Virus record (IMG/VR): IMGVR_UViG_3300048110_000026 | Span: 1-48,686 of that record | DNA: 48,686 nucleotides | Direction: 5' to 3' (one strand) | Source: a virus | Shown: piece by piece, positions 15,813-36,216 of the stretch | How positions within the stretch are numbered: position 1 is the stretch's first letter | Layout: every line of letters begins with the position of its first letter | Program-made: the position numbers and the translations under genes | Notes under the pieces: model-generated | Told to the model about the DNA's origin: nothing | The model's database searches: none | Seen by the model: only the letters and a program-made list of their open reading frames with translations

Positions 15813-15841
15813 ACCTTACCAGCCCCGCCAAGGTCTGTCAA
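15813..15841 (-). promoter_or_regulatory. Predicted sigma70 promoter for DUF932 gene
   Basis: Minus strand TTGACA (15841-15836), 17-base spacer, TAAGGT (15818-15813). The start would lie near 15806, about 38 bases before the ATG at 15768. The -35 box overlaps the stop of the GP88 gene and is part of a 17-base repeat also found at 16717-16733. Confidence 0.6.
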
Positions 15842-15851
15842 GCCAGTAACG
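15835..15851. repeat. 17-bp direct repeat carrying a -35 box and gene 3' end, copy 1
   Basis: CTGTCAAGCCAGTAACG occurs here and again at 16717-16733. Read on the minus strand each copy supplies the last codons (Leu-Leu-Ala-stop) of a gene and the TTGACA of a promoter for the next gene. The two copies therefore mark equivalent gene-to-gene joints. Confidence 0.85.
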
Positions 15852-16656
15852 CAAGCGTAGAAGGATTCCCAAAGAAACTTGGCTTGCTCATCTCAGCCAG
15901 CCGATCAGTAATTTTTGAACCCTTTCTAAGTAATGTACCTACGCTGCCGTCCTTGTCAAGAAACCTTAAGTCTGTATAATCAAAGTCGTTTAACTGCTTG
16001 ATTTCATTATTGATTACAGCCTCAGTGGGCCTCTTAAATTCACCCTTACACTCTTTAGTGTTCAAGGGTAGTGCTACATTAAATCCTTTTGCCACGGCCT
16101 CCTTAGTTTTATTGATTAACTTTTGATTTAGAAATGATGCTGAGTATGTCAAGTGATAATTACTCAGAGTATTTCTTTCAACCCTATGAAATACTTTAGT
16201 GTAATCATAGAACTGGATATTCGGGAGTGATGAAATAAGATCTGACCAATCCTCGTCGCTAGTACCATTGAGTCGGATACAGTAATTATCTGTTTCGTTC
16301 TTGAGTATTTCACTTCGCAATCTATCTTTAACACCATCGGGATCAAGTACATACTGTATTGTTCGACGGGTCATTGCATTTTGCGACAGTAACATCTGCA
16401 AACGACCAGACTTTTTACCTAAACAATCATCCTCACAGCCAGCAGGTTTAGCCCAAGGGCATAAAGTTCTAACTGAAACGGCATTAGAGGGTTGCAAGTA
16501 CAGGATTCCTGTGGTATAATCAAATCTTTTAAGACCTTTAGAGATCTTTACAGAACTATTAAACCCCATAAGAGGTTGTTTAGTAGACATATAATATGTC
16601 TTATTAGATCTTAAAAGTTCTAAAGACTCTGATGTTATTAAATTAGTGTTCACCAT
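15838..16656 (-). CDS. GP88-domain-like protein
   Basis: A 272-residue protein resembling the phage/plasmid 'gene product 88' family: SVRTLCPWAKPAGCEDDCLG (clustered Cys, about residues 62-79), a helix rich in Arg/Gln, CIRLNGTSDEDW, then a YDYTKVFHRVERN strand and a NVALPLNTKECKG segment. The function of the family is not established. The three clustered Cys plus a later one could bind a metal or Fe-S cluster. The start may be the ATG at 16656 or the adjacent GTG (16653), which gives a better six-base spacing to GGAG. It lies downstream of a possible promoter. Confidence 0.75.
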   Translation of the reverse strand: MVNTNLITSESLELLRSNKTYYMSTKQPLMGFNSSVKISKGLKRFDYTTGILYLQPSNAVSVRTLCPWAKPAGCEDDCLGKKSGRLQMLLSQNAMTRRTIQYVLDPDGVKDRLRSEILKNETDNYCIRLNGTSDEDWSDLISSLPNIQFYDYTKVFHRVERNTLSNYHLTYSASFLNQKLINKTKEAVAKGFNVALPLNTKECKGEFKRPTEAVINNEIKQLNDFDYTDLRFLDKDGSVGTLLRKGSKITDRLAEMSKPSFFGNPSTLALLA

Positions 16657-16694: not shown

Positions 16695-16723
16695 AGCAAA
16701 ACACATATCCCCCGACCTGTCAA
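16695..16723 (-). promoter_or_regulatory. Possible promoter for GP88 gene (extended -10)
   Basis: Minus strand TTGACA (16723-16718), 17-base spacer ending in TGT, then TTTGCT. The -10 is weak (three of six) but preceded by the extended -10 TG. The start would be near 16688, about 32 bases before the GP88 gene. The -35 sequence context is shared with the promoter at 15813-15841. Confidence 0.4.
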
Positions 16724-16733
16724 GCCAGTAACG
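16717..16733. repeat. 17-bp direct repeat carrying a -35 box and gene 3' end, copy 2
   Basis: Identical to 15835-15851. Here it forms the end of the mini zinc-ribbon gene (Leu-Leu-Ala-stop) and the TTGACA of the presumed GP88 promoter. Confidence 0.85.
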
Positions 16734-16833
16734 TGAGCCTGTGTCTGAGCGCACATGTCACACATATGAGTTTATTTTTTATTTTTACTAGTAATCCATG
16801 AGGTTTACTAGCACCACACATTAAACACTTCAA
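16720..16833 (-). CDS. Mini zinc-ribbon protein (37 aa)
   Basis: A short frame starting with TTG and preceded by CAGGAG at a seven-base spacing, one of the better ribosome sites in this region. The product has two CxxC pairs: CLMC at residues 3-6 and CVTC at 24-27, separated by a basic 17-residue stretch, as in a four-Cys zinc knuckle. The last residues (LTLLA) match the end of the GP88 protein (LALLA) because both genes share the 17-bp repeat. It could be a DNA- or RNA-binding peptide. It is too short for family recognition; the Cys pairing and ribosome site are the support. Confidence 0.6.
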   Translation of the reverse strand: MKCLMCGASKPHGLLVKIKNKLICVTCALRHRLTLLA

Positions 16834-17453: not shown

Positions 17454-17473
17454 AAAAGCCCCCCGAAGGGGGC
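17454..17473 (-). terminator. UUCG-loop terminator after first early gene
   Basis: Minus strand GCCCCC-TTCG-GGGGGC followed by TTTT: a perfect six-pair G/C stem with a UUCG tetraloop, ten bases past the stop of the gene at 17483. The short U-run suggests partial read-through into the small genes downstream. Confidence 0.8.
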
Positions 17474-17482
17474 GTTATAATT

Positions 17483-17962
17483 TTAACTGCGTAGGGCAGC
17501 GATTGCGGCAGCAGCTTCCTTAGCCGTAGGCTTCTTAGGTTTAGCCTGAGCCTCACGCTCTGCAAGCAAAGCTTGAACCTCCTTGCGAAGCTGCTCAAGT
17601 TCCAACTGCTCCGCAGTTTTCTTGGAAGCCTTTGGCTTTGCTTGAGCTTTTGGCTTGGGTGAAGCCTTCGGCTTATCGTCGCCAGTTTTAACTAAGACAG
17701 CGATTTCCTTCGGAAGTTCGCCGGTAGTGATAAACTTCTGAGCATCGCCGTGGCTCATACGCTTATCCTGATCGCCGTAGTATTTCGCACAGGCTGCTGA
17801 CGTTCGGGCCTTAAGAATCTTAAACGCAGGGTTTAACTTACCCGCTTTCTTCTCACTGATCTTGCGAGTCTTCGCCAGACCTTGGGTGAGTTTATACACT
17901 GCGAATTCAAACTGCTTGAACGTAGCGGGACGATTTGCGTCGATGTTTGCGAAATTTTGCAT
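17483..17962 (-). CDS. First early protein; Lys/Ala/Pro-rich H1-like tail
   Basis: A 159-residue protein from the ATG at 17962 (GGAG seven bases upstream). Residues 1-90 form a helical basic domain (TFKQFEFAVYKLTQGLAKTR, KLNPAFKILKARTSAACAKYYG). Residues about 95-125 are a run of K, P, A, S (KASPKPKAQAKPKASKK) like histone H1 tails, followed by a coiled-coil helix (LELEQLRKEVQALLAEREAQ) and a Lys/Ala end. It is the first gene read from the leftward promoter after a 630-base leader, and its bases look more GC-rich than its neighbours. Likely nucleic-acid binding; takeover of host DNA or RNA is a guess. Confidence 0.75.
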   Translation of the reverse strand: MQNFANIDANRPATFKQFEFAVYKLTQGLAKTRKISEKKAGKLNPAFKILKARTSAACAKYYGDQDKRMSHGDAQKFITTGELPKEIAVLVKTGDDKPKASPKPKAQAKPKASKKTAEQLELEQLRKEVQALLAEREAQAKPKKPTAKEAAAAIAALRS

Positions 17963-18170
17963 AATAGATCTCCTGATCTTATCTTTTTGAAGAACAAAGC
18001 TGGCCTCGCCGCCAGCCCTTTCAACGCTGCCAGAAGCCGAAACCGATTGCAACCACTTTTGGTGCGTTACCCTGCGCATTATGCACACCGTAATCGCGTT
18101 TTAAAAGCAGAACGGCCCAAATCGGCCTTGATTTTCGGGAGGTTTTGGAGATCTGGGGAGTTTGCTGAGG

Positions 18171-18188
18171 AGTATCCTTAGGGATACT
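18171..18188. other. 7-bp inverted repeat in the early leader
   Basis: AGTATCC-TTAG-GGATACT is a perfect seven-pair stem. There is no U-run after it on either strand, so it is a leader RNA hairpin or a protein-binding dyad rather than a terminator. Confidence 0.55.
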
Positions 18189-18250
18189 GGGGATGAACTG
18201 GCTGGAGGTTTGGTTGTCGGCAGGTAAAACTACGCAACGCGTTGAAAAAC

Positions 18251-18410
18251 TTAGGAGTTCTTTGGAGTTTAGTATTACTTTAACGTCACTTCACAGCACT
18301 CTGGAGGCTGTCAACCATAAACTATGGAGATACTCTGGAGTATTCTTTAGTAATTCTTTAACGCGGAGGTAGACTTAAGAGTATTCTGGAGTTCTTTAGA
18401 GTATTACTCA
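18251..18410. repeat. Three imperfect A/T-rich repeats (candidate iterons)
   Basis: Related units at 18251-18285, 18331-18363 and 18376-18410 share a GGAGTTCTTT or GGAGTATTCTTTAG core followed by AGTATTACT or AGTAATTCT and, in the first two, TTTAACG. Similar wording (TTAGTATTCCTTAGAACG) appears at 16901-16918. Repeats of this kind beside an A/T-rich tract are typical of origins or initiator-binding sites, but no initiator is identified. Confidence 0.5.
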
Positions 18411-18577
18411 GGGGCGGGCAGGTGCCCATACCCCCACCCGTATATATATACACAATCTCAAACATTTTACAGAACTTTAGAGTGTCAACTAGACTCTGGA
18501 GATCTTGGGGCGGGAACACTGAAGTGCTTAAAAGTGATTATGCAGGGCTTTAAAGTTATACTTGTATATCTATATGC

Positions 18578-18591
18578 AGCCCCGGTGGGCT
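18578..18591 (-). other. 5'-end stem-loop of early transcript
   Basis: Minus strand AGCCC-ACCG-GGGCT lies within one or two bases of the predicted leftward start (about 18592). A stem at the extreme 5' end is a known way to protect an mRNA from 5'-dependent decay. Confidence 0.45.
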
Positions 18592-18598
18592 TAATAAT

Positions 18599-18627
18599 AG
18601 TATAGGGTCAGGATGAGCATTTGTCAA
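18599..18627 (-). promoter_or_regulatory. Main leftward (early) promoter
   Basis: Minus strand TTGACA (18627-18622), exactly 17 bases, TATACT (18604-18599): one mismatch from the sigma70 consensus. A T/A tract just upstream would serve as UP element. Start expected near 18592. Mirror partner of the rightward promoter. Confidence 0.88.
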
Positions 18628-18653
18628 GTCTTTTAAAAAAAATAAAAAAAGAC

Positions 18654-18682
18654 TTGACAGATGCTATACCTAGCCCTATACT
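18654..18682 (+). promoter_or_regulatory. Main rightward (late) promoter
   Basis: TTGACA (18654-18659), 17 bases, TATACT (18677-18682). The same A/T tract lies upstream. Six bases separate the -10 from the ATG at 18689, so the expected start is the A of that ATG. The arm is nearly identical to the leftward promoter, including 11 of 17 spacer bases. Confidence 0.88.
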
Positions 18683-18688
18683 ACTTGT

Positions 18689-19078
18689 ATGGATAATAAA
18701 AAAGAACTAACAGAAAAACAGAAAAGTTTTCTAGGCCATCTTGTAGAAGTAGGAGGTGATCCAAAGAAAGCAGCCGAACTTGCAGGTTATTCTGGGAATC
18801 ATTGGCAGGTTACCAAATCACTTAAGAATGAAATAATAGACCTAGCGTCAAATATCCTAGCGCAATCTGCTCCTCAAGCTGCAATAAAACTAACTGAGGT
18901 GATGAACTCTGACCAACCAGTTCCTCAAGCCAATATCCGACTTCAAGCAGCACAAACAATATTAGATCGGATTGGACTAGGTAAATCTGATAGGTTAGAT
19001 GTTAGTCACACTGTACAAGGTGGTGTTTTTATATTACCTGCAAAAGAAGAGGTGATAATTGAGCATACCGAAGCGTAG
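18689..19078 (+). CDS. Terminase small subunit-like protein
   Basis: A 129-residue protein. The N-terminal region (LTEKQKSFLGHLVEVGGDPKKAAELAGYSG) is the helix-turn-helix typical of terminase small subunits, then a helical linker (AAIKLTEVM, NIRLQAAQTILDRIGL) and a C-terminal strand. It would bind packaging sites on concatemeric DNA and hand them to the large subunit. It is the first late gene, and its ATG coincides with the predicted transcription start, so no ribosome site is possible. No alternative start is near. The next gene overlaps it by 20 bases. Confidence 0.8.
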   Translation: MDNKKELTEKQKSFLGHLVEVGGDPKKAAELAGYSGNHWQVTKSLKNEIIDLASNILAQSAPQAAIKLTEVMNSDQPVPQANIRLQAAQTILDRIGLGKSDRLDVSHTVQGGVFILPAKEEVIIEHTEA

Positions 19079-27390: not shown

Positions 27391-27402
27391 ACCTTTCAGG
27401 TG

Positions 27403-27433
27403 GGGGCTGCTTCGGTGGCCCCTTTCCTTTTTT
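27403..27433 (+). terminator. Strong terminator after capsid gene
   Basis: GGGGCTGC-TTCG-GTGGCCCC forms an eight-pair stem (two G-U pairs) with a UUCG loop, followed by TTTCC and six T. It lies 13 bases after the capsid stop. It would set capsid mRNA apart from the downstream tail genes, which must then be reached by read-through. Confidence 0.88.
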
Positions 27434-36187: not shown

Positions 36188-36216
36188 TTGACAACCTTCA
36201 GAAAATATGCTATAAT
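36188..36216 (+). promoter_or_regulatory. Perfect consensus sigma70 promoter
   Basis: TTGACA (36188-36193), 17 bases, TATAAT (36211-36216): every consensus base matches. The start would be near 36223, 12 bases before the ATG at 36235, with AAGGAG in between. It gives separate expression to the two membrane proteins and the internal virion genes downstream. Confidence 0.88.

Follow-up and report, generated by a model that had tools for sequence, protein, structure and literature searches.

The stretch of DNA analysed here, the 48 686-nt genome of an HTVC103P-like marine phage (the window), carries two strong sigma70-like promoters that diverge from the border of its replication and structural arms, an assignment supported by their sequence and by their counterparts in relatives. 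Judged from sequence comparison, the locus (18599–18682) is real and conserved; it is a control region of familiar type but unusual build. The pair is probably the main site in this phage family at which the host RpoD-type RNA polymerase would start transcription, feeding both gene arms outward.

The phage and its gene arms

The window has identical ends of 127 nt and is thus a circular contig. Its leftward genes encode both ribonucleotide reductase subunits, a Cas4-type exonuclease, endonuclease I, a family A DNA polymerase and a primase-helicase, and its rightward genes encode TerS, TerL, portal, capsid, tail and lysis proteins. No RNA polymerase gene was found among the main ORFs scanned, and within these ORFs the first-pass annotation was right to describe a phage without an RNA polymerase.

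The large terminase subunit (TerL) shares 65–67% identity with those of the Pelagibacter phages HTVC103P, HTVC104P and HTVC115P, and about 49% with that of HMO-2011. An HMO-2011-type terminase is found here together with an HTVC103P-like primase; likewise, HTVC103P-type pelagiphages and the group IV genomes (PMC8528129) carry HMO-2011-type packaging and structural genes and a related primase. The HTVC103P-type isolates also have the same divergent promoter pair and the same leaderless terS geometry as the window, but their G+C content is about 31–34%, compared with 40.8% in the window. In gene content and G+C content the window fits the metagenomic genomes of group IV (PMC8528129), and we place it among these relatives. 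Promoters go unmentioned in the text of PMC8528129 and PMC9038755, and our literature search found no paper describing the divergent promoter locus.

Divergent promoters in the window

As had been reported in the first-pass annotation, TTGACA-17-TATACT occurs on both strands. The leftward promoter, P-left (18627–18599, − strand), consists of TTGACA (18627–18622), the 17-nt spacer AATGCTCATCCTGACCC and TATACT (18604–18599), and the rightward promoter, P-right (18654–18682, + strand), consists of TTGACA, the 17-nt spacer GATGCTATACCTAGCCC and TATACT. Each scores 11/12 against the RpoD/sigma70 consensus, and the 17-nt spacing falls within the 16–18 nt usual for such promoters. The A/T-rich stretch of 26 nt that separates the −35 boxes (18628–18653) holds an inverted-repeat loop and possible UP tracts.

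The equidistance of both −35 boxes and both −10 boxes from one centre, which had been pointed out for this locus, is geometrically true but adds no information, since equal spacers place any two divergent promoters symmetrically around the point halfway between them. The real observation is the agreement between the spacers, which are alike at 11 of 17 positions, as claimed (naive binomial P = 0.0016, from the spacers' own composition). No inverted repeat in the window is longer than the one made by the arms 18598–18634 and 18647–18683, which are 84% complementary, and an ungapped scan with 37-nt arms gave 31/37 matches around a 12-nt loop. Because the maximum in 20 dinucleotide-preserving shuffles of the window was only 23–26 matches of 37, a chance origin of this repeat was ruled out. 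The likeness between the arms stops at the −10 box.

The stronger claim, that this locus alone governs the entire genome, was not established: a third promoter, a perfect 12/12 match with an extended −10, lies inside the structural arm (36188–36216, + strand), and terminator-like hairpins occur in both arms, one past the first leftward gene (17458–17473, listed on the + strand) and one at 27402–27423. A 22-nt direct repeat (CTGTCAAGCCAGTAACG..., 15835–15856 and 16717–16738, 91% identical) flanks a GP88-like gene.

Conservation of the promoter pair in relatives

Relatives were gathered via terS homology, together with a pattern scan. At 382 of the 391 loci having a terS homologue, two near-consensus promoters stand back to back within 60 nt, and the nine exceptions are three loci too short to score, five with a wider gap (L016/L228 and L270–L272) and one truncated contig (L361). 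Hence, the site expected of an RpoD promoter is conserved in relatives and its exceptions are explained. In L016, L019 and L270–L272 the left promoter had seemed to be missing, but it is present across the wider gap. In L016 and L019 the gap is widened by an insertion between the promoters with the inverted repeat TAACCGAACA...TGTTCGGTTA; a word similar to this repeat was found in the leader of L062.

The left −35 box is TTGACA in all 144 unique arm pairs; members of the HTVC103P clade have TTGTCA as the −35 box of P-right. The cultured phages HTVC103P, HTVC104P and HTVC115P all carry the pair, both promoters of HTVC115P scoring 12/12, and no pair was found in the stretches of HMO-2011 and CRP-1 that were scanned. 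In all 15 records of about 44–53 kb the exact pattern TTGACA-N17-TATAMT recovered the pair (one arm where the spacer is 16 nt), in nine of them it matched nothing but the pair, and the reversed pattern gave almost no matches.

In relatives the −35 boxes can be as close as 6 nt or over 80 nt apart, and the two sites therefore need no fixed phasing. Where the gap is near 8 nt there would hardly be space for two polymerases at once, and competition between them is likely. As far as can be read from DNA, the divergent layout is a family trait, kept in every relative with enough upstream sequence.

Predicted 5′ ends of the two transcripts

On the rightward side, the ATG of the terminase small subunit gene terS (18689–19078, + strand) lies 6 nt past the −10 box, at the predicted +1. 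The terS ATG is 6–11 nt downstream of the −10 box in 138 of 143 unique relatives, whereas on the left side any ATG at this distance was found in just 8 of 144. The start codon would thus lie near +1, leaving no room for a Shine–Dalgarno sequence, and the mRNA would be leaderless if transcription starts at the usual distance. We therefore predict a leaderless rightward terS mRNA across the family.

On the leftward side, a putative 5′-terminal stem-loop, AGCCC-ACCG-GGGCT (18578–18591, − strand), starts at the predicted +1, its stem beginning about 6 nt past the −10 box. A covarying left stem-loop is present in most relatives, with compensating stem pairs (GUAAUCGG/CCGGUUAC, UGACCC/GGGUCA, AACCC/GGGUU and AGCCC/GGGCU), and the left hairpin score was 13.2 compared with 9.7 for shuffled sequences (paired t = 8.0). 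No hairpin was found on the right side, where the control gave t = −0.2, and the left stem-loop matched no Rfam family at E 0.5.

The stem-loop opens a predicted untranslated leader of ~600 nt (17963–18591, − strand), which contains repeated CTYTAAAG words, spaced 9 nt, and a conserved element, TCTAGTTGACACTCTAAAGTTCTGTAAAATGTT (18461–18493, − strand). This element reads TCTAGTTKACA ... TAAAATGT, and TCTAGTTKACA recurs in the leaders of most relatives. Together with the CTYTAAAG words it is possibly an origin, an operator array or an RNA element. The leader ends at the first leftward gene (17483–17962, − strand), encoding a conserved early protein of 159 aa with the invariant residues I7, D8, A13, Q17, H71 and P84; its distant members bear the AT-hook-like motif GRPKGSKNK. 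A structural model of this protein was of moderate quality (pLDDT 74) and matched neither PDB nor viral structures at E 0.001, and no known family or fold was found for it. With a hairpin and leader on the left and a leaderless gene on the right, the matched promoter cores would feed differently built 5′ ends.

Likeness of the two promoter arms within a genome

The agreement of the spacers had been read as a sign of one regulator that binds both arms, with spacer conservation in related genomes as its check. This comparison did not bear out an operator that is fixed across relatives: spacers differ widely from genome to genome and the gap varies as well, which disfavours a fixed operator of fixed geometry. 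What stands of the proposal is some coupling of the arms within a genome. The two arms of one genome are alike at 8.34 of 17 spacer positions, compared with 6.70 for swapped arms (z = 9.8), and for 34 representatives differing at at least 14 positions, which are not fully independent of one another, the signal was strongest in register (z = 5.8). Position by position, the excess likeness falls mostly on spacer positions 3–5 and 11–17 and on the fifth base of the −10 box, with its main share in the half of the spacer next to the −10 box, and it is absent from the loop and beyond the −10 box. The strongest covarying pairs are spacer 16, spacer 17 and TATA[A/C]T. As the arms of one genome are alike in register, some coupling is real, whether it comes from a shared regulator, a polymerase preference or homogenization by template switching, and these three causes are compatible with one another.

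The age of the resemblance bears on the other explanation that had been offered, a recent duplication by inversion. The 84% likeness of the 37-nt arms would agree with such an event, but in the close relatives L012, L013 and L017 (TerS 92–95% identical) the arms are alike at up to 14/17 positions with different letters, and the resemblance is therefore ancestral, maintained and older than the clade of the window. Moreover, the likeness stops at the −10 box, and the flanking first proteins have no similarity to each other, so that no duplicated flanking gene accompanies the arms. A recent inversion is thus very improbable. The arms appear instead to have undergone moderate concerted evolution that predates the clade of the window.

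The extent of this coupling was estimated from changes mapped on a tree of TerS (a 130-residue protein), about 440 for each arm. Cases in which the two arms underwent the same change on the same branch numbered 37 in register, compared with 8–20 at shifts of 2–6 and with 31 and 21 at shifts of one; 37 in-register against 8–31 off-register changes indicate a moderate coupling. In pairs of close relatives, 24 spacer changes were co-located against 15.4 expected, and most recent changes were independent. Template switching is known to homogenize short inverted repeats (PMC8604942), and if it acted between the two arms it would make them change in parallel, as they moderately do. The in-register excess agrees with it, though less clearly against shifts of one, as do striking parallel changes in the clade of the window (L012/L013/L017) and in L267/L268, a greater excess at gaps up to 16 nt than at gaps of 17–30 nt, and a possible loop inversion between L337/L339 and L343/L345, in which the edges between the −35 boxes look exchanged or inverted, with an 11-nt reverse-complement match. 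However, the excess peaks beside the −10 box, at a distance from the loop, and there is none within the loop. Of 196 loop pairs, 183 match better in direct than in inverted orientation. The dependence on gap length is also weak (Spearman −0.19, P = 0.10), and the class with the widest gap is as alike as the tightest. Hence, we consider template switching a rather unlikely main source of the likeness.

The confinement of the in-register excess to the promoter core would suit a phage or host regulator that binds an operator in both spacers beside the −10 box, and the product of the first leftward gene is a candidate, being conserved and bearing the AT-hook-like motif in distant members. In some clades, TGTAAACT occurs in the P-right spacer, in 9 of 100 distinct spacers compared with 0.02 expected, and it also occurs in the leftward leader on the same genomic strand, with up to 12 identical bases. 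Members of the HTVC103P clade show almost no variation in their P-right spacer. On the other hand, TGTAAACT is missing from all left spacers and from the spacers of the window itself, gap lengths vary freely, the spacers have no consistent dyad, and no regulator was identified, the candidate protein being without a fold match. Two more specific readings were rejected: an internal dyad in each spacer, as no consistent centre was found in left or right spacers, and words shared between spacer and own leader as a general trait, as these are limited to right spacers of some clades and do not include the window. A shared regulator is a tentative explanation.

It is also quite conceivable that both promoters are merely tuned to the same host polymerase, the preference of which next to the −10 box differs by host lineage. 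The strongest covarying sites (spacer 16, spacer 17 and the fifth −10 base) map to promoter positions contacted by polymerase, and column preferences are common to both arms. Such tuning does not account for the in-register signal at spacer positions 3–15 (z about 5), where we know of no base contacts by polymerase.

DISCUSSION

With the pair as the probable main start site, incoming phage DNA would be transcribed outward into both arms by the host housekeeping RNA polymerase. The leftward RNA would open with a short 5′-terminal stem-loop and then carry a long leader, the small conserved early gene and the replication genes. The rightward RNA would start at the terS AUG, to be translated, as we infer, without a leader, and continue into the genes for packaging and structure. 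The two promoter cores of a genome would be alike because both have to serve one DNA-reading factor, for which a shared regulator or a common host polymerase is the likeliest candidate; now and then, one arm may also be copied from the other as the inverted repeat is replicated.

In the immunity region of phage lambda, one intergenic locus launches two opposed transcripts by host RNA polymerase, and lambda cI is a leaderless phage mRNA. The present locus would share with that region the back-to-back launch of two opposed transcripts from host-type promoters. Unlike lambda, it has no recognized repressor or fixed operators, and comparison of left and right spacers revealed no shared dyad-symmetric operator; its promoter cores mirror each other, and its leaderless gene would be terS. 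On the leftward side, a parallel may be drawn to the 5′-terminal stem-loops that protect bacterial mRNAs, such as ompA, from RppH/RNase E entry. The phage stem likewise begins at the predicted first nucleotide, but it sits on an early leader and has no Rfam match.

A further reading joins these features, namely that a large family of marine phages relies on a single promoter module, the matched cores of which co-evolved under one early phage DNA-binding protein, and that the 5′ ends sort the transcripts, giving a temporal order. We regard it as speculative and unlikely to hold in full. If true, the hairpin-capped early RNA and the leaderless terS RNA would be translated under different ribosome conditions, and neither a polymerase nor a sigma factor of the phage would be needed for temporal order.

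Abundant marine phages that lack an RNA polymerase of their own still need to time replication versus packaging. The locus offers a concrete, family-wide candidate for this timing, in which matched host promoters would have outputs differing only at their 5′ ends, and the idea can be put to a direct test in the cultured phages HTVC103P, HTVC104P and HTVC115P, with Pelagibacter HTCC7211 as host.
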